Shown here piece after piece: positions 2,935 through 27,252 of a stretch of DNA of 36,531 nt. Each line of letters opens with the position of its first letter. The stretch's first letter is position 1. Origin of the DNA: Alphaproteobacteria bacterium (lineage in GTDB: Bacteria; Pseudomonadota; Alphaproteobacteria; Reyranellales; JAQSWP01); assembly GCA_029266575.1 (NCBI GenBank), contig JAQSWP010000036.1, positions 1 to 36,531 of the forward strand. Direction: 5' to 3'. The notes under the pieces were generated by a model. The model was not told where the DNA came from and did not search any database. It saw nothing but the letters and a program-made list of their open reading frames with translations. The translations under genes were made by a program, and so were the position numbers.

Positions 2935-3723
2935 TTGCGTATATTGGACGACAACCCTAGCAGCGAGTCGAAACCGGCCGTGGCCAAGAAACCGACCAGA
3001 CTTGCCGCCCGCGGCCGAACCACTGGCAAGCCGGCCGGAAAAGCGGCAGGCAAAGCAGCGCCGAAGCGCACCTCGCAAATCGACATCCTCGCGGCGCTGG
3101 AGCACGACATCGTCTCCGGCTCGATCAAGCCCAATCAGCGGCTGGACGAGCGCGAGCTGGCGCAGCGCTTCAAGGTCTCGCGCACGCCAGTGCGCGAGGC
3201 GCTGAACCGGCTGGTGTCGTCGGGCATCGTCGAGTACCGGCCGCGCCAGGGCATGTTCGCCGCCGCCATGACCATGTCGCAGTTCTTCCACATGTACGAG
3301 GTGATGGCGCATCTGGAAGCCTTGTGCGCCCATCTCTGCGCCCGGCGCATGAGCCGCGCCGACCAGCAGGCGCTGACCGAGCTGCATGCCGGCGTCGGCG
3401 CCATCCTGGAGGCGCAGGACGTTGCGGCCTATAACCGCTACAACCAGAAATTCCACGACCTGCTCTATCGCGGCGCCAAGAACCCGGTGCTGGAGGAGCA
3501 GGTGCGCATTCTGCGCCGCCGCCTGCAGCCCTATCGCAGCTTCAGCTTCGAATTCCCCAACCGGATGCGCGAATCGCATGCCGAACATTCGCAGATCATC
3601 GATCACATCATGCGCGGCGACAGCGATGCGGGCGAGCGCGCCATGCGCGACCACATGGATATCCGGCGCGAGAATTTCTCCGACTTGCTGGTGGTGCTGA
3701 GCGGCACGCTGCTCGACGGCTAG
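2935..3723 (+). CDS. GntR family transcriptional regulator, FCD-type, with Lys/Ala-rich N-terminal extension (TTG start uncertain)
   Basis: wHTH LDERELAQRFKVSRTPVREALNRLVSSGIVEYRPRQGMFAA followed by FCD-like YEVMAHLEALCAHLCARRM...RESHAEHSQIIDHIMRGD. Confidence 0.88.
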   Translation: MRILDDNPSSESKPAVAKKPTRLAARGRTTGKPAGKAAGKAAPKRTSQIDILAALEHDIVSGSIKPNQRLDERELAQRFKVSRTPVREALNRLVSSGIVEYRPRQGMFAAAMTMSQFFHMYEVMAHLEALCAHLCARRMSRADQQALTELHAGVGAILEAQDVAAYNRYNQKFHDLLYRGAKNPVLEEQVRILRRRLQPYRSFSFEFPNRMRESHAEHSQIIDHIMRGDSDAGERAMRDHMDIRRENFSDLLVVLSGTLLDG

Positions 3724-3753
3724 GATCATTCCGCCGCGCTCATCGGTACGGCC

Positions 3754-6123
3754 TCATTCGGCCGCGGGCGCCCGCAAGCCATACTGCGCCAGGATCTCCT
3801 GCGAATGCTGGCCCAGCAGCGGCGCGGGCCGGCGGATTTCGTTGGGCGTGTCGCTGAGCTTGTTGACCGTGCCGAGCAACTTCACCATGCCGGCGGTCGG
3901 ATGCTCGATCTCCTGGATCAACTCGCGCGCCTGCACTTGCGGATCGGCATAGGTCTCGTCGTGATGCAGCACGGGCCCGGCGGGAATGCCGGCCTTTTCC
4001 AGCGCCGTGAGCCAGTGCTCGCGACTGTGCTTGATCATGTGGGTCTGGATCAGGCTCGCCAGCACGTGGCTGTTGCGCACACGCACGGGATTGTCGAGGA
4101 AGCGGGGATCGCGCGCCAGCTCGGGCGCACCCAGCACGTCGCAGAATTTCTCCCACAGATTCTGCGGTCCCGCCCCCACCACCAGCCAGCCATCGGAGGC
4201 CTGGAACGCCTGATAAGGCGCGCTGCCGCGATGCTTCTCGCCCAGCGCCTTGGGCCGCTCGCCGGTGGCGAAATACGAAGCCGATTCGTAGACGCCCAGC
4301 GCCACCGCCGTTTCCAGCAGCGACAGATCGACCTGCTGGCCGCGTCCGGTGCGGTGGCGCGCTTGCAGCGCGGTCAGCACGCCGATGGCGCCGAACATGC
4401 CCGAGCAGATGTCGGAGATGGGAATCGGCAGCCGGCGCGGATTGCCGGCGTCGTCGGCATTGACCGCCATCAGTCCTGACATGCTCTGCGCGATCAGGTC
4501 GAAGCCGCCGCGATCGCGATAGGGGCCGGTGGCGCCGAAACCGGAGATCGAGCAATAGACCAGTTTCGGATTGAGCTTCGACAGCGCTTCGTAGCCCAGC
4601 CCCAGCCGGTCGCAAACGCCGGGGCGGAAATTCTCCACCAGCACGTCGGCGCTTTCGACCAGGCGGCGCACGGCGGTAACGCCCTCGGCGGTCTTCAGGT
4701 CGAGGGCGAGGCTGCGCTTGTTGCGGTTGAGCAGCATGAAGGCTGCGCTCTCTTTGCCGGTGAAGGGCGCGATGCGGCGCATCTCGTCGCCGCCATCGGG
4801 CCGCTCGATCTTGATCACGTCGGCGCCGGCATCGGCCAGCAGCATGGTGCAGAACGGGCCGGACAGGAACGTCGTCAGGTCGACCACCCCGATGCCTTGC
4901 AGACCACCACTCACTTCCAATATCTGGCGCAGCGGAATGTCGGGCGCGATGCCCTGGATGACGAAGAGATTGACGCCGACCGGCGGCGTGATCAACCCGA
5001 TCTCCATCAGGATGGTCATGATGACGCCGAACCACACCATGTCGAAATTATAGGCCTCCAGCGCGGGCTGGATCAGCGGCATCACCACCAGGATCAGCGC
5101 CACCGGCGGCAGGAAGCAGCCGCCGACCAGCAGGAACGCCGACACCAGGCTAAAGAACGCCCAGCGATCGAGCCCGGCGGCGTTCATCAGCTCGCCGAAG
5201 GACTGCGTCACGTAGAGCAGCGACAGCATATAGGCGAACAATCCGGAGGCGGCGATGATCAGCAGCAGCATGGCCGAATCGCGCATCACCTCGCGCCCGA
5301 CCTCGCGCCACAGCGCCATGCCCGGCCGGTAGATCGCCAGGACCAGCAGCACCGCCAGCAAGGCGGCGACGGCAGCGCCTTCGGAGGGCGTGGCGATGCC
5401 GCCATAAAGCGCCACCAGCACCATGACGATCAGCATCAAGAACGGCAGCACGCGCAAGGTGGCGGCGGTTCGGCCTGCTTGCGGTGTGGCAGCTGCACGC
5501 TCTGGCGCTGCGGCGGCGAACTGGCCGCGCGAGGCGTAGACGGCATAGGCAGAGAACGCCACCACCAGGACGGCGCCGGGGATGATGCCGGCCACGAACA
5601 GCTTGCCGATCGAGGTGCCGGTGGAAATGCCGTAGATGATCATGGTCACCGAGGGCGGAATGAGGATGCCCAACGTGCCGCCGGCGCAGATCGAGCCCGC
5701 CGCCAGCCAAGCCGGCACGCCGCGGGCGCGCATTTCGGGAATGCCGGAACGGCCGATGGCGGCGGCGGTGGCGGGGCTGGAGCCGCAAATGGCGGAGAAC
5801 AGGCCGCAGGCCACGATGTTGGCCACCACCAGCCCGCCCGGCAGCCAGCCCAGCCAGCGATGCGCGGCATCGTTGAGATCGGCCGAGGCGCGCGAGGCGC
5901 CGACCACGCTGCCCAGCAGCACGAACATGGGCAACGCCAGCAGGGCGAAGCCGTTGACCTCCTCGAACATCACCCGCGGCACGGCGACCAGGCTCGACGG
6001 TCCGGCGAACAGGAAGAGGAAGACGATCGAGATCGCCGCCAGCCCATAGGAGATCGGAACGCCGATCAGCAGCACGATAGTGGTGACGGTCAGGATCAGC
6101 GCGCCCAGCTCCAGCTCGCTCAT
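3754..6123 (-). CDS. TRAP transporter large permease (DctM-like) fused in frame to class III CoA-transferase (CaiB/BaiF)
   Basis: ATG at 6123; residues 1-403 are DctM-like (MSELELGALILTVTTIVLLIGVPISYGLAAISIVF...TPPVGVNLFVIQGIAPDIPLRQIL). Residues from 404 are CoA-transferase (VSGGLQGIGVVDLTTFLSGPFCTMLLADAGADVIKIERP...). No stop between the two. Confidence 0.8.
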   Translation of the reverse strand: MSELELGALILTVTTIVLLIGVPISYGLAAISIVFLFLFAGPSSLVAVPRVMFEEVNGFALLALPMFVLLGSVVGASRASADLNDAAHRWLGWLPGGLVVANIVACGLFSAICGSSPATAAAIGRSGIPEMRARGVPAWLAAGSICAGGTLGILIPPSVTMIIYGISTGTSIGKLFVAGIIPGAVLVVAFSAYAVYASRGQFAAAAPERAAATPQAGRTAATLRVLPFLMLIVMVLVALYGGIATPSEGAAVAALLAVLLVLAIYRPGMALWREVGREVMRDSAMLLLIIAASGLFAYMLSLLYVTQSFGELMNAAGLDRWAFFSLVSAFLLVGGCFLPPVALILVVMPLIQPALEAYNFDMVWFGVIMTILMEIGLITPPVGVNLFVIQGIAPDIPLRQILEVSGGLQGIGVVDLTTFLSGPFCTMLLADAGADVIKIERPDGGDEMRRIAPFTGKESAAFMLLNRNKRSLALDLKTAEGVTAVRRLVESADVLVENFRPGVCDRLGLGYEALSKLNPKLVYCSISGFGATGPYRDRGGFDLIAQSMSGLMAVNADDAGNPRRLPIPISDICSGMFGAIGVLTALQARHRTGRGQQVDLSLLETAVALGVYESASYFATGERPKALGEKHRGSAPYQAFQASDGWLVVGAGPQNLWEKFCDVLGAPELARDPRFLDNPVRVRNSHVLASLIQTHMIKHSREHWLTALEKAGIPAGPVLHHDETYADPQVQARELIQEIEHPTAGMVKLLGTVNKLSDTPNEIRRPAPLLGQHSQEILAQYGLRAPAAE

Positions 6124-18224: not shown

Positions 18225-19706
18225 TCACTGCCGCAACTGGATCCAAACACTCTTGCTCTTGAGATATTTCTCAAGCGCAATTGCGCCGAAATCCTTGCCG
18301 AAACCCGATTGCTTGTAGCCGCCGAAGGGCGAGCCGACGTCCAGCGAGCGGCCATAGGTGTTGACCCAGATCATGCCGGCTTCGATGCGACGGGCGGCCA
18401 TCAGCGCCTTGTTGATGTCGCTGGTGTGGACCGCGCCGGCCAGCCCGTAGATCGAATGGTCGGCCATGGCGAGGCCTTCTTCGACGTCGTCGAAGGTCTG
18501 CACCGCCAGCACGGGGCCGAACACTTCTTCTTCCACCACCGGCGAGCCGGCCTTCGACCGCACCACGGTGGGCTGGAAGAAGGCGCCCTTCTCCGTTTGC
18601 TCGCGCCCGCCGCCCAGCAGCACATCGTCGCCCGCCTGGCGGGTGCGATGGAGGATGTCGGCGATGCGATCGGTCTGCCTGGCCGAGATGATCGGCGCCA
18701 GGGTCGTGGCGAGGTCCCAGGTCGGGCCGGGCTTGGCGTCCCATAGCAGCGCCAGCACCTTGTCCAGCAACTGGTCGGCGATCTTGCGTTCCACGACAAG
18801 ACGCGAGCCGCAATAGCAGAGCTGGCCGGCATTGCGCGACACGCCCGACGCGATCGTGGCCGCAACCTGATCGAGGTCGGGAATGTCGGCGAAGACGAGT
18901 TGCGGACTCTTGCCGCCCAGCTCGAGCGACACAGGCTTCAGGCCGCTATTGGCGGCATCGATCATCACCGCCTTGCCGGTGGCGGTCGAGCCCGTGAAAG
19001 AGACGACACCGATTTTGGGATGGCGTACCAGGGGGGAGCCCGCTTCCTGGCCGTAGCCGACTACGACGTTGAACAGGCCGGCCGGCAGCCCCGCGTCGAT
19101 GGCCAACTCGGCCAGGCGCAAGGCGGTGAAGGGCGTCAGCTCCGAAGGCTTCAGCACCACGGCATTGCCGGCAGCCAGCGCCGGCGCGACCTTGGCGGTC
19201 GCCAACACCATCGGCACGTTCCAGGGCGCAATGGCGCCGACCACGCCATAGGGCTCGCGCATGGTCAGGCTGAAGACATCGTCGCGGGTCGGTAGCACCT
19301 GGCCCTCGATCTTGTCGGCGCATTCGCCATAGAAGCGGATCAGCTCGGCGGTGATGGCGACGTCGCGGATACGGGTTTCGGCGATGACGCGCGAGGAGGA
19401 CAGCGATTCCAGCCGCGCCAGCTCCTCGGTGTGCCGCTCGACCAGATCGGCCCAGCGCCGCAGCACAGCGCCGCGGCGGCGCGGCTCGCCGTGCGCCCAA
19501 TCGCTGGTCCTGAAGGCCTGCCAGCCGCTTTCCACCGCCTCGTCGACAGTGCCGGCATCGGCGCCTGCGAAACGCGCCGCGATATGGCCGTCGGACGGGC
19601 GCTGCACGGCGATCTCGCTGCCTTTGCCGATGACGCGCCGGCCGCCGATATAGGAATCGGTCGGCAGTTTCTCGAGATCGGGATCGAAAGCCTGAATGCC
19701 GTCCAT
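18225..19706 (-). CDS. Aldehyde dehydrogenase family protein
   Basis: GVVGAIAPWNVPMVLATAKVAPALAAGNAVVLKPSE, SFTGSTATGK, LELGGKSPQLVF, NAGQLCYCGSRL, EEVFGPVLAV. Confidence 0.95.
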   Translation of the reverse strand: MDGIQAFDPDLEKLPTDSYIGGRRVIGKGSEIAVQRPSDGHIAARFAGADAGTVDEAVESGWQAFRTSDWAHGEPRRRGAVLRRWADLVERHTEELARLESLSSSRVIAETRIRDVAITAELIRFYGECADKIEGQVLPTRDDVFSLTMREPYGVVGAIAPWNVPMVLATAKVAPALAAGNAVVLKPSELTPFTALRLAELAIDAGLPAGLFNVVVGYGQEAGSPLVRHPKIGVVSFTGSTATGKAVMIDAANSGLKPVSLELGGKSPQLVFADIPDLDQVAATIASGVSRNAGQLCYCGSRLVVERKIADQLLDKVLALLWDAKPGPTWDLATTLAPIISARQTDRIADILHRTRQAGDDVLLGGGREQTEKGAFFQPTVVRSKAGSPVVEEEVFGPVLAVQTFDDVEEGLAMADHSIYGLAGAVHTSDINKALMAARRIEAGMIWVNTYGRSLDVGSPFGGYKQSGFGKDFGAIALEKYLKSKSVWIQLRQ

Positions 19707-19716
19707 CGACTGCCTC

Positions 19717-21438
19717 CTAGCTGGTGCGCACGTAAACCGCTTCGCAAATGACGTTCAGCACCGCCTGGCGCTTCTCGGCCTGCACCGCGTGCAGCGCCCG
19801 CTTCAGCGCCGCCGGCAGCTCGGCCGGATCGCTGACTTTCTCGCCATAGCCGCCGGAAGCCTCGACCAGCTTCTCGTAGTCGGGCGAGGGTTCGAGGCAG
19901 GAGAAGGTCGGCTGGTTGTCCTTGGCGGCGTGGCCGTGCGGGTACATCGACAGAGTGGCGCGATGCACCGCCGCCCAGCGCGCGTTGTTGAACACGACGG
20001 TGAGGAACGGCAGCTCCATGGCGCGCGAGACGAAATGCGTCGGCGTAGGATTGCCGAACATGTAGGTGCCGTCGCCGACGCAGACCACGATGGTGGCGTC
20101 GGGCTTGGCGAGCCTGTAGCCTAGCGCCGCGCCCATGCTCCAGCCCAGGCCGCCGGCCGGGCTGTGCGAGAAATAGGTGCCGGGCCGGTCGAAGCTGACC
20201 TGCTCCAGCACCAGCGGATATTCGTTGATGATGATGGTGTCGCCGCTCTTGGCCTGTTCGATGCAGGTCGAGACCCATTTCGGTGTCATGATCGCCGGCG
20301 TCTTGAGATCGTCGGCTACCGGCTTCCACGACGGCTTCTTCTGGAACTCGCGCACGCGCTCGGCGCGTTCAGACAGCGCCTTCTCCGCCGTCGCCGCGCC
20401 CGCCAGCGTAGCAAGCGAGGCGGCCGGATCGCCGGTGATGGCGAGATCGGCCTGGAAGCCGCGGATCGGATAGCGCGCGAAGAGCGGATCCATGCCGATA
20501 TGCACGACCTTGCACGAGGCCGGCAGGTCGACCTGCTCGGGCAGCCACGGCACGTCGCTGTCGGCCACGATCACCAGGTCGGCATCCTTGAGGAACGGGT
20601 TGGGGTCGTAGCCGCAATGCATCGGGTGATCGTCGGCCAGGCACAGATAGCGCGGGCGATACTGCACCACCGGCACTTTCTGGCGCGTGGCGAAATCGGC
20701 CAGCGCGGTGTAGCTGGCAAGATCGCGACCGATATTGGAGGTGATGATCACAGGCTTCCTGGCCTGCGCCAGATAGTGCGAGGCCTGCGCCAGCGACTTG
20801 GGGTCGCCGTGCGGGGTGGCGGCGGGCGCGATGCTGGAGCTGACATCCAGTTTGTAGCCGTTCATGCCCGACGCCAGCACTTCGCGCGGCAGGGTGAGGT
20901 AGACCGGGCCCTTGGGATCGGACTGCGCCAGCGCGATGGCGCGATCGACCACGGTCTCCAGCTGCACGGGCTGGCGCAGTTCGTAATCCCATTTCACGAA
21001 CTCGCGCACCATGGCGCCCTGGTCGAACATCTCCTGCGCCCAGTTGATGTAGTTGTTGCGCCCGCCCAGCATGCCGGACTCGACAATGGGAGTACGACCG
21101 GCGGTGAACAGCACCGGCACGTTCTGGCGCGCGGCATTGATGATGCCGTTCATGGCGTTAGCGGTGCCTAAGCCCACATGCACCATCACCGCCTGCATCC
21201 TGCCGGTCGCCATGTAGTAGCCATGCGCCATGGCGATGGCGACGTTCTCGTGCGGCGCCAACACCGGGATCGGATAGGAGGCATTGCCGGTCTTGGCCTT
21301 GGAATAGGCCTCGATGATCGGCGGGAAATCCGTGCCGGCATTGCCGAAGATGTAATCGATGCCGCGACTCGACAGCAGCGACAGATAGGCTTCGGCAACA
21401 GTCTCTTCTGGTTCGGACACTGACATTTCCTTTTTCAT
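19717..21438 (-). CDS. Thiamine pyrophosphate-dependent enzyme (acetolactate synthase/benzoylformate decarboxylase-like)
   Basis: IFGNAGTDFPPIIEAY, conserved Glu in APHENVAIAMAHGYY, TPP motif VCVGDGTYMFGNP. Confidence 0.9.
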   Translation of the reverse strand: MKKEMSVSEPEETVAEAYLSLLSSRGIDYIFGNAGTDFPPIIEAYSKAKTGNASYPIPVLAPHENVAIAMAHGYYMATGRMQAVMVHVGLGTANAMNGIINAARQNVPVLFTAGRTPIVESGMLGGRNNYINWAQEMFDQGAMVREFVKWDYELRQPVQLETVVDRAIALAQSDPKGPVYLTLPREVLASGMNGYKLDVSSSIAPAATPHGDPKSLAQASHYLAQARKPVIITSNIGRDLASYTALADFATRQKVPVVQYRPRYLCLADDHPMHCGYDPNPFLKDADLVIVADSDVPWLPEQVDLPASCKVVHIGMDPLFARYPIRGFQADLAITGDPAASLATLAGAATAEKALSERAERVREFQKKPSWKPVADDLKTPAIMTPKWVSTCIEQAKSGDTIIINEYPLVLEQVSFDRPGTYFSHSPAGGLGWSMGAALGYRLAKPDATIVVCVGDGTYMFGNPTPTHFVSRAMELPFLTVVFNNARWAAVHRATLSMYPHGHAAKDNQPTFSCLEPSPDYEKLVEASGGYGEKVSDPAELPAALKRALHAVQAEKRQAVLNVICEAVYVRTS

Positions 21439-23494
21439 TGACCACGCTCGACCAGCGCGTCGGCGATGACGTAAGCGCCGGCCGTTGCAGCCATTACCGG
21501 ATTGAGATCAACCGAGGCGATGGCGCCCTTGGCGCCGGCGACCAGGTCGGCAAGTTTCATCGCCAGCTGCGCCAGTGGCTTGAGCTCGTAACGCTTCTCG
21601 CCACGCACCCCCGCGAACAGCGGCGCGATCTGCAGCCGTTGCAGGGCGCGCAGCACGTCTTCTTCGGCGAAGGGATGGCGCAGCAGCACCGTGTCCTTCA
21701 GCGCCTCGACGTATTTGCCGCCGTCACCCAGCATCACCAGGGTGCCGAACTGCGGATCGAAGCGGGCACCGACCATCAGCTCGCGCCGCGCCGAGACCAT
21801 GGCAGCGGCGATGACGCCGTCGTTCTCCGCTTTCAGTTCGATCAGCCGGCCGGCGATGTCCTCGTAGGCCGACCGCGCGCCAGTGGGGCCGGTAATGCCT
21901 AGCCGCACCAGCCCGTATTCCGATTTGTGCGGGAAGCTGGCGGCGGAGCCTTTCAGCACGATGCGCCCGCCCAGAATGGTCAACACGGCGGCGGCATCGT
22001 CGGCATTGCGGCACAGGCGCTGCGGCACGATCGGCAGGCCGTGCTTCTCCAGCAGCTGCATGCTCTGCCATTCGCTGAGGAACTGGTCCTTGCCGGCGGG
22101 CAGCGAGACTTTCGGCAGATCGCGGACCTTGGCGACGGGCCGGCGCATCAGTTCGGCATGCGCGGCCAGTTGCCCAAGGGCTGCAATGGCGTCGCTGTCG
22201 TGCTGGAATGTGGGAATGCCTTCGGCGCGGAACTGGTCGGCGATCTTGGTTTGCGGCTGGGCGACGGCGATGGCCTTGCCGGTCTCGCGCATGAAGGCGG
22301 CCGTGTCGCGGGCGAAGGTGGGCGTGTCGTAGCCGGTGCCGGCGATCGGCAGCGAGATGAAGTGCACATCGGCGGCATCGCCTTCTGCCAGGATCGGCAG
22401 CATGTCGGAGAACAGCTGGCGAAATCGGGCAGTGCGGATTTCAATTTCTCCGCCGTCGCCGCCTCAAAGCGCGGCAAGGATAGACCGTTGGTCTCGGCCA
22501 GATCGGCCGCCATGACGCAGCTGGCGCCGGAATTGGAGATCGCCACCAGCCGGTGCGTGCGCGGCCGCCAACCCTTGAGATACAATTCGGCCGCATTGCA
22601 CAGCGCTCGTACGTCAGGCGCGCGCCAGATGCCCTGCTGCTCGAAGAAGGCGTCGATCACTCGGTCTTCGGTCGCCAGCGCGCCGGTATGCGAGGACGCG
22701 GCCGCCTGGCCCGCTGCCGAACGTCCCGCCTTCACCGCGATGATCGGCAGATCGCGTTCGCGCGCCACGCGGGCGGCTTCGATCAGCATGTCGGGATCGA
22801 GAATCGCTTCCATATAAAGAAGCAGCAGCTTGATGTCGGGGTCCTGCGCCACGGCGAGGGCGAAATCGGCGACGGTGAGATCGCTCTCGTTGCCGGTCGC
22901 ATGCGAGTGGCGCACGCCGATGCCGCGCTCGCGCAACAGCGCATAGGGCACCACGCTCATGGCCCCGCTCTGGCTGACGATGCCGATCGGCCCGTCCTGC
23001 GGCGGCACTTCGTTGAACATGGTGGCGAAGGAAGCCACCGCGCCCAGCGAGAAGTTCGCTATGCCCTGCGTGTTGGGACCGACCAGCCGCATATCGGCGG
23101 CGCGCGCCGTGTCGACCATGCGATCCTGCGCGGCACGCCCCTCGGCGCCGATCTCGCCGAAACCCGACGTCATGATCACGCCGATGCTTACACCCTTGGC
23201 GGCGCAGGCTTCGACGGCTTGCACCGCGGCCATGCCCGGCACGGCGATGATGGCGAGGTCGGGCGCTTCGGGCAGGCTTGCGATGGAGGAATAAGCGCGA
23301 TGGCCCTGGATCTCGTCGCGGTTGGGATTGATCGGATAGACCCGTCCGCGATAGCCGAAACGCTGCAGATAGGCGATGGGACGGCCGCCGATCTTGTGCG
23401 GGTTCTCCGACGCGCCGATCACGGCGATGGAGCGCGGCTGCAAAGCGGCCTGCTGCCAGTCCGACGCCATCGGCTTGCGGGCCGGCGCGTTCAT
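21435..23494 (-). pseudogene. Acyl-CoA synthetase (NDP-forming; CoA-binding plus ATP-grasp), disrupted by a frameshift/deletion near 22410-22425
   Basis: N-terminal frame (ATG 23494): PRSIAVIGASENPHKIGGRPIAYLQRFGYRGRVYPINPNRDEI...KLKSALPDFA. C-terminal frame (21435-22403): MLPILAEGDAADVHFISLPIAGTG...EKHGLPIVPQRL...GRIVLKGSAASFPHKSEYGLVRLGI. Confidence 0.8.
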
Positions 23495-25524
23495 GCGGCG
23501 CCTCGCGTCATATGACGTACAGGGGGCTTCTTGCCGCTCTCGCGCTCGGCCTGCGCCTTGCCGGCCAGGTACTGCTTCGGCCACCATTGCTTGGCGAAGC
23601 CCTGCTCCACCGCAGCCTTCAAAGTCCACGACGCGTCGGTGAGATGCGGCCGAGCCAGCGCGCAGAGATCGGCGCGGCCGGCGGCGACGATGGAATTGAC
23701 CTGATCGGATTCGGTGATGGCGCCGACGGCGATTGTGGAAATGCCGACTTCATTGCGGATGCGATCGCTGTAAGGCACCTGGAACATGCGGCCGTAAAGG
23801 GGGCGCGAGGCGCGCGTGGTCTGGCCCGTCGAGACGGTGAGGGCATCGGCGCCGGCCGCCTTCAGGATGCGCGCCAGTTCCACAGCCTCCTCGCCCGTCA
23901 AGCCGCCGTCGGCCCAGTCGGTGGCGGAGATGCGCACGCTCAAGGGCTTGTCCCAGATCTTGCGCACGGCTTGCAGGATGCGCCCGGGCAGGCGGGCGCG
24001 ACGCTTGATGTCGCCGCCGAATTCATCGCCCCGCTTGTTGGTGAGCGGACTTATGAAAGACGACAGCAGATAGCCATGGGCGAAATGCAGCTCGATCATG
24101 TCGAAGCCGCAAAGCAGCGCGCGCGAGGCGGCGGCGACGTATTGCCCTTCAAGCATGTCGATATCGGCCGCCGTCATTTCCTGCGGCGTCTGATTGCGCG
24201 GGCCGTAGGCGATGTCCGAGGCGGCCAGGATCGGCCAGTTGCCCTCGGGCAACGGCTCGTCCATGCGCTGCCAGCCCAATTGCGTCGAGGCTTTCGGCCC
24301 GGCATGGCCCAGCTGGATGCCGATCCTGGCCGGCGAGGCCGTGTGGACGAACGCCACGATGCGACGCCAGGCATCGACATGGGCATCGTCGTAGAGACCG
24401 GCACAGCCCGGCGTGATGCGGCCTTCGGCCGAAACGGCCGTCATCTCGCTCAGGATCAGCCCGGCGCCACCCATGGCGCGGGCGCCCAGATGCACCAGAT
24501 GGAAGTCGTTCACCAGCCCATCGGTGGCGGAATACATGCACATCGGCGACAGCACGACGCGGTTAGCGATGGTCATGTCGCGCAGCCGGAACGGAGTGAA
24601 CATCGGCGGCGCGGTCTCGTTGAGTCCGGCATCGCGGGCGATCGCAGCCTCGACCTCGGCCACCAGTGCGGGATAGGTCTGCGCCATGTCCTCGTGGCCG
24701 GTGCGCTGACTGGCAGTGAGCAGGCTGTAGGCGAAACGCGGCAGTGGCAGCCCGGCATGGCGCTGCGGCGTTGCGAACCAGTCAAGCCGGTTGCGCACGC
24801 CATGCTGGGCGGCGGTGACGATCTTCTGGCGCTGCTCGGCGAAGCTCGCCTTGGCATCTTCCGACGCCAGCGCCATGGCCAGCGCCTCGATCAGCGCCGG
24901 CTGCTGCTCGGCCGCGCCCAGGCACAGCGCATCGTCGGCCAGGCCAAGATCGAAATCGCACGGTGCGGCCTTGGCCAGCGTGAAGGCCACGGCCCCCAGC
25001 CCAGCCTGGCGCAGCAGCGCAGTCGCGTCCGGCTGCGCGCCGTGCGGCCATAGCAGCTCGATCCGTCCAGGATAGAGTCGCAGATGGGCCGGCGAATCGC
25101 CGGCAAACACCAGTTGCACGCTGGAGGAACCGGCCACAGTCGGGGCGACGGCTAAGCCTGCCTCGCCTGGTCCGGCAATCAGCGCCCCTGCAGGCGGCGA
25201 TGCCGCCGGGGCGATGTCGGCATTGCGCGCATTGTGCCTGAGGAAGTCGATCAGATGGCGGGCGACGGGAACGAGATCGCTCTCGCCGCACTCCACACGG
25301 ACGCCATCGCGAATGACGACCAGCGGCAGCCGCGACGCCTCGGCCAAGAGCGTCTTCAGCTCGGGAAACGCGCGCTGCAGCCAGGCGCGCGCGGCGCCGG
25401 AGATCGGGCGCGGCGGCGTGTCGTTCTCAACTGCAACGCTGAGCTGCAGCGTCGGCGCGGCCTGCTGCAGCCGCAGCGCCACAGCCAGTCCGAGCCAGCC
25501 CGCTATGTCGACATGCAGCCGCAT
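23491..25524 (-). CDS. NADH:flavin oxidoreductase (OYE-like) with degenerate N-terminal flavoprotein-monooxygenase-like region (anthraniloyl-CoA monooxygenase/salicylyl-CoA hydroxylase architecture)
   Basis: C-terminal OYE: PPMFTPFRLRDMTIANRVVLSPMCMYSATDGLVNDFHLVHLGARAMGGAGLILSEMTAVS, IQLGHAGPKAS, ELHFAHGYLLSSFISPLTNKRGDEFGG. Linker LDWFATPQRHAGLPLPRFAYSLLTASQRTGHEDM typical of the fused family. Confidence 0.85.
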   Translation of the reverse strand: MRLHVDIAGWLGLAVALRLQQAAPTLQLSVAVENDTPPRPISGAARAWLQRAFPELKTLLAEASRLPLVVIRDGVRVECGESDLVPVARHLIDFLRHNARNADIAPAASPPAGALIAGPGEAGLAVAPTVAGSSSVQLVFAGDSPAHLRLYPGRIELLWPHGAQPDATALLRQAGLGAVAFTLAKAAPCDFDLGLADDALCLGAAEQQPALIEALAMALASEDAKASFAEQRQKIVTAAQHGVRNRLDWFATPQRHAGLPLPRFAYSLLTASQRTGHEDMAQTYPALVAEVEAAIARDAGLNETAPPMFTPFRLRDMTIANRVVLSPMCMYSATDGLVNDFHLVHLGARAMGGAGLILSEMTAVSAEGRITPGCAGLYDDAHVDAWRRIVAFVHTASPARIGIQLGHAGPKASTQLGWQRMDEPLPEGNWPILAASDIAYGPRNQTPQEMTAADIDMLEGQYVAAASRALLCGFDMIELHFAHGYLLSSFISPLTNKRGDEFGGDIKRRARLPGRILQAVRKIWDKPLSVRISATDWADGGLTGEEAVELARILKAAGADALTVSTGQTTRASRPLYGRMFQVPYSDRIRNEVGISTIAVGAITESDQVNSIVAAGRADLCALARPHLTDASWTLKAAVEQGFAKQWWPKQYLAGKAQAERESGKKPPVRHMTRGAA

Positions 25525-25931
25525 CAGGTGGGCTCGCGCGCCAGCATCGCGGTGGCTTTGATCTCGATCAGGGCGCCCTTGCGGATCAGGCCGGAGACCA
25601 GCACACCGGTGGCGGCAGGCCAGGGTGGGCCCTTCAGCATCTCGCGGCGGATAGCGGCGGTCTTCTCGTAGCCTTCGAAGGTGGTGACGTATTCGGTGGT
25701 GTCGACGATATCGGCCAGCGAGCCGCCGACGCTTTCCAGCAGCCGCTGCATCTTGCCCAGGATGTAGCGCGTCTGTTCGGCCAGATCGCCTTCATGCACC
25801 AGTTTCATGGTGTCGTCGGTGGCGGTGAGGCCGGAGATCCACACCATGCGGCCGACGCGGACCGCCGGCGAAAAAGTCAGGCGGCCGGAGGCTTCGACGC
25901 CAGGATAATGGATCGGAACGAACGCGCTCAT
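25524..25931 (-). CDS. RidA/YjgF/YER057c/UK114 superfamily protein
   Basis: FSPAVRVGRMVWISGLTATDDTMKLVHEGDLAEQTRYILGKMQRLLESVGGSLADIVDTTEYVTTFEGYEKTAAIRREML. Confidence 0.9.
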   Translation of the reverse strand: MSAFVPIHYPGVEASGRLTFSPAVRVGRMVWISGLTATDDTMKLVHEGDLAEQTRYILGKMQRLLESVGGSLADIVDTTEYVTTFEGYEKTAAIRREMLKGPPWPAATGVLVSGLIRKGALIEIKATAMLAREPT

Positions 25932-25939
25932 GGTTTCCT

Positions 25940-26428
25940 CTAACCGCTCATGCGCAGCAGATAGCGGTGAAAGCCTTCGGCCAGGACTTCGCCCTTGTCG
26001 TTGACGACGGCGATGGAGAAAGTCACCACGCCGCTCTTCTTCTCCGACTTCAACGCCACGCTCTCCACCACGAAGCCGGTGCTGACTCGATCGCCGACCA
26101 GAGCGGGGGCGCGAAACTTCATGCCCTGCTCGAGGAACGCCACCATCGATTCTTGCAGCCGGTCCGATAGCGGCGTGGCGCCAAGTGCTGTGATCGACGT
26201 CACCAGCAGGCCGTGCGCCAAGCGCTTGCCGAAGCGCGACTTGGCGGCGTAGGCGTCGTCGTAGTGGATCGGGTGGCGGTCGCCGGTGAGCTCTGCGAAT
26301 TGCCTGAACTGCGGATCGCCCAGCACCACGGATTGCCCGGCGTACCGCTGGCCGACGGCGAAATCCTCGGCGTAGAGCTGCGACGTGCCCTGCTCCAGCT
26401 TCGCCATGGGTTCAGCGTTGGCCGCCAT
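25940..26428 (-). CDS. MaoC-like hotdog dehydratase
   Basis: FAVGQRYAGQSVVLGDPQFRQFAELTGDRHPIHYDDAYAAKSRFGKRLAHGLLVTS (hydratase-like D..H motif). Confidence 0.9.
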   Translation of the reverse strand: MAANAEPMAKLEQGTSQLYAEDFAVGQRYAGQSVVLGDPQFRQFAELTGDRHPIHYDDAYAAKSRFGKRLAHGLLVTSITALGATPLSDRLQESMVAFLEQGMKFRAPALVGDRVSTGFVVESVALKSEKKSGVVTFSIAVVNDKGEVLAEGFHRYLLRMSG

Positions 26429-26437
26429 GTCCGGCCT

Positions 26438-26776
26438 CTAGCGGTCTTCGAGCACGGCGCGGCCGATAACCGTCACCTCGTCCTTAACGCGCTCGACCAC
26501 CGAACCGTCGTCCTTCAGCTCGACGATGAGCTTGTCGCCGGGGCATACCGGGCCGACCCACTTGGTGTGGAGCTTGCCGCGATAGAACCAGTCCTTGCCG
26601 TATTTCTTCATGGCGAGATCGCACACGAAGGCCGACAGATGCGGGCCGTGCACCAGGGTGCCGCGGAAGCCGCGCTTGAGGCAGTACTCGTGGTCGTAAT
26701 GGATGATGTCGTTGTCGCCGTTGATCTTGCCGTAGAGATCGATCTTGGCCTGGTCGATGGGAATTTCGCGCTGCAT
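26438..26776 (-). CDS. MaoC-like hotdog dehydratase, short
   Basis: DLYGKINGDNDIIHYDHEYCLKRGFRGTLVHGPHLSAFVCDL. Confidence 0.85.
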   Translation of the reverse strand: MQREIPIDQAKIDLYGKINGDNDIIHYDHEYCLKRGFRGTLVHGPHLSAFVCDLAMKKYGKDWFYRGKLHTKWVGPVCPGDKLIVELKDDGSVVERVKDEVTVIGRAVLEDR

Positions 26777-26796: not shown

Positions 26797-27252
26797 TCAG
26801 GAAGGAACGTGGAAGGTGTTGACCATGGAGGCGATGGGCGTGCCGTCGGCGCGCTTCCATTCCGCTTCCCAGCGCACGTAGCGCCGGCCACGCTTCTCGA
26901 ACTTGTCGGCCACCTTGCCGGTGACGACCATGTCGGTGGTCTCGTCGGCCCAGATCGGGTTGCGCCAGCGGAACTCGACCTCGGCCATGACAATGCCCTG
27001 GATCGGCGGATATTTCCGATAGAGCGGCACGGTCATGTAGGGGAACAGCACGTTGGGCGGCGCCGCCAGGCGACCGTCGAGCTTGTAGAGCGAGCGGTCG
27101 GCTTCGACCGAATCGAAGTACTCCTCGACGATGGCCGGCGTGATGGTGAAGCGCAGTTCTGGCAGGGCTGCGCCGACAACGAACGCGTCGTAGGGCGTGC
27201 CGGGCACCGAATCTTCCCGCGGCTTCAACTGGTCGGGTCTCGTCATCTTCAT
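26797..27252 (-). CDS. Hotdog (FAS1-like/MaoC N-terminal-type) protein
   Basis: LRFTITPAIVEEYFDSVEADRSLYKLDGRLAAPPNVLFPYMTVPLYRKYPPIQGIVMAEVEFRWRNPIWADETTDMVVTGKVADKFEKRGRRYVRWEAEWKRADGT. Confidence 0.75.
   Translation of the reverse strand: MKMTRPDQLKPREDSVPGTPYDAFVVGAALPELRFTITPAIVEEYFDSVEADRSLYKLDGRLAAPPNVLFPYMTVPLYRKYPPIQGIVMAEVEFRWRNPIWADETTDMVVTGKVADKFEKRGRRYVRWEAEWKRADGTPIASMVNTFHVPS

Follow-up and report, generated by a model that had tools for sequence, protein, structure and literature searches.

The 36,531-nucleotide stretch of alphaproteobacterial DNA analyzed here (the window) encodes a protein that is probably a fusion of the 2-aminobenzoyl-CoA monooxygenase/reductase type turned into an OYE-only (OYE, Old Yellow Enzyme) reductase, in which the former hydroxylase half persists as a pseudo-hydroxylase domain. 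The gene is a single open reading frame of 677 codons without stops or frameshifts, and it starts with an ATG that shares bases with the stop codon of the RidA gene upstream (TGATG at 25524; Table 1).

Table 1. Coordinates, within the window, of the fusion gene, its parts and the adjoining genes
Feature	Position	Strand	Remark
Whole fusion gene, 677 aa: degenerate hydroxylase region, bridge and OYE domain	23491..25524	-	
Degenerate PHBH/VioD-type FAD hydroxylase region, residues 1-204	24913..25524	-	FAD and substrate motifs lost
Decayed beta-alpha-beta FAD fingerprint, residues 1-34	25423..25524	-	Length and register as in the family
Helical bridge between hydroxylase and OYE, residues ~204-305	24610..24912	-	Homologous to intact fusions, 30-40% identity
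OYE (Oxidored_FMN) domain, residues 306-677	23494..24609	-	103/111 family-conserved positions kept; intact domain at residues 307-660
RidA/YjgF-family protein (enamine/imine deaminase family)	25524..25931	-	Translationally coupled to the fusion gene
MaoC-like dehydratase/hydratase	25940..26428	-	
MaoC-like domain protein	26438..26776	-	
NDP-forming acyl-CoA synthetase	21435..23497	-	Directly downstream, overlaps the end of the fusion gene

Reading frame and assembly

A sequence-only reading had flagged positions 24600-25524, which correspond to codons 1-308 of the fusion gene, that is, to everything that precedes the OYE domain, and both stretches that it quoted, the N-terminus MRLHVDIAGWLGLAVALRLQQAAPTLQLSVAVE and the linker LDWFATPQRHAGLPLPRFAYSLLTASQRTGHEDM (residues 247-280), are indeed encoded by the ORF at 23491-25524 on the minus strand. 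That reading had also raised a frameshift as a cause of the missing FAD site, and none was found: when 40 intact hydroxylase halves were compared by tblastn with all frames of 24900-25524, no trace of an intact hydroxylase was recovered, and codon usage favors the frame of the ORF over the other two along the whole N-terminal part, which together rule out a frameshifted intact hydroxylase. The match of G086 to residues 22-145 involves an ORF antisense to a methionyl-tRNA synthetase-like ORF and was taken as chance.

The sequence comes from a fragmented assembly that consists of 316 contigs and is 81.9% complete, and its lineage is represented by this one sequence, with no close relative in the data searched. 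The state of the assembly, the frameshift in a neighboring gene (see below) and the existence of such frame errors in other assemblies, of which the homologue L074 is an example, all speak for a chimera or for frame errors that cancel. However, no frame holds an intact hydroxylase and the ORF frame is preferred throughout, the translational coupling with RidA is ordinary, and the register with the start of the family is significant, which makes a sequencing or assembly artifact very improbable.

Family membership and the OYE domain

The architecture proposed earlier, that of an aminobenzoyl-CoA monooxygenase/reductase-type enzyme, is borne out by the match to PRK08255, by the bridge and by the conservation of the OYE domain. 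PRK08255 (NCBIfam, bifunctional salicylyl-CoA 5-hydroxylase/oxidoreductase; 768 model positions) matches residues 218-668 only (profile positions 306-761), with a score of 654 bits that lies below the curated cutoff of 1078; intact relatives match over their full length with 1157-1310 bits. The family trait present in the window protein is a C-terminal OYE domain joined via the family's helical bridge, and homologues in public genomes align to the window protein from residue ~204-230 onward only. In these homologues the ORF extends upstream into an FAD hydroxylase half with the motifs GGGPAGLY, DGxNS and GDAxxTAHFSIGSGT, and the closest solved structure of this intact half is VioD (PDB 3c4a), whose fold the ancestral form of residues 1-204 is expected to have had and which matches the intact relatives but not the window protein. 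(Our account of the intact fusions cites PMC3534580.) Pfam detects no FAD or NAD domain in the window protein, in which FAD_binding_3 (PF01494), above cutoff in intact relatives, is missing even with the E-value limit relaxed to 1, and the GxGPxxL fingerprint, DGxNS and GD...AHFSIGSGT motifs of the PRK08255 family are absent.

To compare the three parts, we counted the positions that are at least 95% conserved among 67 intact fusions; the hydroxylase half has 74 of them, the bridge 22 and the OYE domain 111. Intact distant members that were checked keep 69-74, 20-22 and 98-110 of these, respectively, and the window protein keeps 11 of the 22 bridge positions. That its OYE domain is intact, as the sequence-only reading had it, is supported by the retention of 103 of the 111 positions and by an Oxidored_FMN match (PF00724, residues 308-638) of 215 bits against a cutoff of 27, with a weak overlapping Dus match inside the barrel. 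The motifs SPMCMYSA, QLGHAGPK, ELHFAHGYLLSSF and VRISATDW are all present, and the active-site residues presumably play the roles of their counterparts in YqjM, from which we assigned them. Stand-alone class III OYE reductases (YqjM/XenA/NamA type) share the domain fold and the motifs, including SPMCMYSA, but are only ~40-47% identical to the window protein, whose OYE domain groups with the fused ones; intact PRK08255 relatives, which have the same order of hydroxylase region, bridge and OYE domain, are ~47-59% identical to it over bridge and OYE.

Loss of the hydroxylase from an intact ancestor

Fusions and stand-alone OYEs are split with a support of 100. In a careful tree of the bridge and OYE domain, the window protein is nested among intact fusions, within a 22-row clade (support 100/100), its neighbors being three intact proteins from one family within its own class (92/66). 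Because it nests inside intact fusions, the absence of the hydroxylase represents a loss, and the phylogeny shows, as the simplest account, a descendant of an intact fusion that lost its hydroxylase function. The rest of the 81.9% complete assembly of this genome contains no further homologue of the hydroxylase half, intact or otherwise.

Residues 1-204 are ~85 residues shorter than the hydroxylase half of intact homologues and keep 16 of the 74 conserved positions. In the comparison with shuffled sequences, 17 positions are kept against a mean of 17.7; because this count equals that expected by chance, the family-specific hydroxylase residues can be regarded as gone. In the register of the family, GGGPAG has become IAGWLG, such that the second and third glycines of GxGxxG are kept, the first is replaced by Ile and the Pro of GGGPAG by Trp, and Glu32 at the end of beta-2 has become Val. 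Aligned by eye, the family's LMGDAAHT...SIGSGTK corresponds to CLGAAEQQ, with GA in place of GD and the GSGT loop deleted. The sequence-only reading had described this half as lacking a dinucleotide-binding fingerprint, which is correct insofar as GGGPAG, GD and GSGT are destroyed but overstated insofar as the fingerprint is decayed and not wholly absent, IAGWLG still standing in register. Its wider proposal, that the hydroxylase half lost its FAD site, agrees with the loss of motifs, the counts of conserved positions, and the profile and family searches.

Residues 1-34 align without gaps, end to end, to the beta-alpha-beta unit of the family (p ~0.0007, tested against free shuffles and hydropathy-preserving shuffles), and residues 65-104 match the hairpin and helix that follow, also gap-free (p <=0.004, for a segment chosen by eye). 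In contrast, a profile-profile comparison of residues 1-204 alone with the family did not rise above shuffles, and the global profile score of the whole region reached a z of only ~1.9. Because neither the local nor the whole-region profile comparison is significant, the case for descent rests on position, phylogeny and the register tests. Structure prediction was of low confidence here: AlphaFold2 gave a pLDDT of 41 for residues 1-290 alone and, for the whole protein with 13 sequences, ~20-50 over most of residues 1-210. An unrelated or newly arisen segment in place of a decayed hydroxylase might account for the lack of a significant profile-profile match and for conserved residues at chance level; given, however, that two segments keep a gap-free register with the family and that Pfam shows no other family in residues 1-204, we consider such a replacement improbable.

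Composition of the leftover domain

An open frame in the N-terminal region is no proof of its use, because a stop there would remove the downstream OYE half as well. We compared its composition with that produced by neutral drift, simulated from an intact relative until the loss of conserved residues matched that of the window protein. Residues 1-204 contain 15% Leu, 19% Ala and 7% Arg, with GC1/2/3 of.79/.53/.79, whereas simulated drift resulted in 5-8% Leu, 11-16% Arg and a mean GC2 of at least.56 that rises with GC1; the observed Leu and Arg contents, and a GC2 of.53 at this GC1, thus fall outside the simulations. The composition lends indirect support to a retained fold, as opposed to plain neutral drift. 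A role of the leftover domain as a scaffold or substrate-binding domain, as originally suggested, is only a possibility. That the domain still binds a ligand (a CoA thioester, or FAD non-canonically) and serves a catalytic or allosteric function is doubtful: a composition pointing to a retained soluble fold and the survival of two of the three fingerprint glycines would fit, but the replacement of the first glycine and of Glu32, the loss of the GD motif and GSGT loop, and the deletion of ~85 residues argue against it.

Genomic neighborhood

RidA-family genes also lie near several of the intact fusions, but unlike those, the fusion in the window is surrounded by MaoC proteins and an NDP-forming acyl-CoA synthetase. 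The assembly (~82% complete) holds no close aminobenzoate-CoA ligase, the best candidate being 38% identical. Beside the two MaoC genes lies a gene for a 151-aa protein (26797-27252, minus strand) that has no Pfam or NCBIfam match and is possibly a diverged hot-dog domain. Further along the minus strand, at 19717-21438 and 18225-19706, a TPP-dependent enzyme (PRK08327, above cutoff) adjoins aldehyde dehydrogenase and TctA/TctC transporter genes, and these may form a pathway unit.

Compared with its paralogues in the same genome, the acyl-CoA synthetase gene is broken, with a frameshift that distributes it over two frames and ~45-50 bases missing near 22385-22425; it is either a pseudogene or a consensus error. 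Because this gene is broken, and because the lineage is known from one sequence in a single fragmented assembly, we keep as a live, if unlikely, rival the pseudogenization of the whole operon, in which the N-terminal half decays first and the OYE half merely lags. The damaged synthetase adjoining the fusion gene and the long OYE branch of the window protein (0.69, compared with ~0.1-0.2 in its nearest relatives) are consistent with such decay. However, the OYE domain is conserved at 103 of 111 positions while the hydroxylase region is at chance level, all 677 codons are uninterrupted, and the composition by codon position is unlike that of drift.

A second loss

Motif inspection of more than 90 fusions revealed one other such loss, in the metagenome-assembled genome Hyphomicrobiales 336R_metabinner_98 (JANYDZ010000497.1, positions 3152-5386, plus strand; hereafter L015). 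The remaining fusions have intact motifs save for one frame error (L074, in which the first part of the homologue is out of frame, likely an error of that assembly) and truncations at contig ends (L098 and L021), which we do not count as losses. Like the window protein, L015 is a fusion with an intact OYE domain and lost hydroxylase motifs, reading GVDPAGLY, DGVGS and GAAAYNSHHSIGLDARTS, and its FAD_binding_3 match is below cutoff; unlike the window protein, it retains a nearly full-length hydroxylase half that is still ~30% identical to the family. Conserved positions retained in L015 amount to 33/74 for the hydroxylase half, 16/22 for the bridge and 97/111 for the OYE domain. An NDP-forming acyl-CoA synthetase gene (40% identity) is also present on its contig, but on the opposite strand. 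Searches around its genome returned only relatives at ~25-34% identity.

L015 belongs to a clade separate from that of the window protein (support 100/97), and a single origin of both losses is rejected (AU test of their union, p 0.024; both branches are long), such that, by the phylogenetic evidence, the hydroxylase motifs were lost independently in the two lineages. Both degenerate proteins have an Asp to Thr replacement in the same OYE column (T563 in the window protein, T644 in L015); Asp occupies this column in 64 of the 67 intact fusions and in 13 of the 14 stand-alone OYEs that were scored. Hydroxylase loss might be a recurrent route to an OYE reductase whose retained pseudo-hydroxylase serves in substrate docking or regulation, and the parallel replacement may mark a change of substrate; we offer this as a speculation of rather low probability.

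Proposed function and implications

The loss of motifs suggests that the N-terminal region of the window protein would bind no FAD and activate no oxygen, making a hydroxylating, dearomatizing first step impossible. The FMN-bound OYE half would take hydride from NAD(P)H and reduce an activated C=C bond that is already non-aromatic, most plausibly that of a CoA-thioester enone or enamine, and the coupled RidA could then hydrolyze an imine or enamine product. Fusion to the OYE half and packing against it may explain why the leftover domain was kept, with a role in structure or docking. A literature search with thin coverage of subscription papers found no fusion of the 2-aminobenzoyl-CoA monooxygenase/reductase kind with a dead hydroxylase half.

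Annotation based on similarity may call such proteins hydroxylases despite there being no visible oxygenase site. With the window protein, nature provides a way to ask if the OYE half of the bifunctional aminobenzoyl-CoA enzyme functions by itself and what, beyond catalysis, the hydroxylase domain adds. The two independent losses, in the window and in L015, make a comparison possible.
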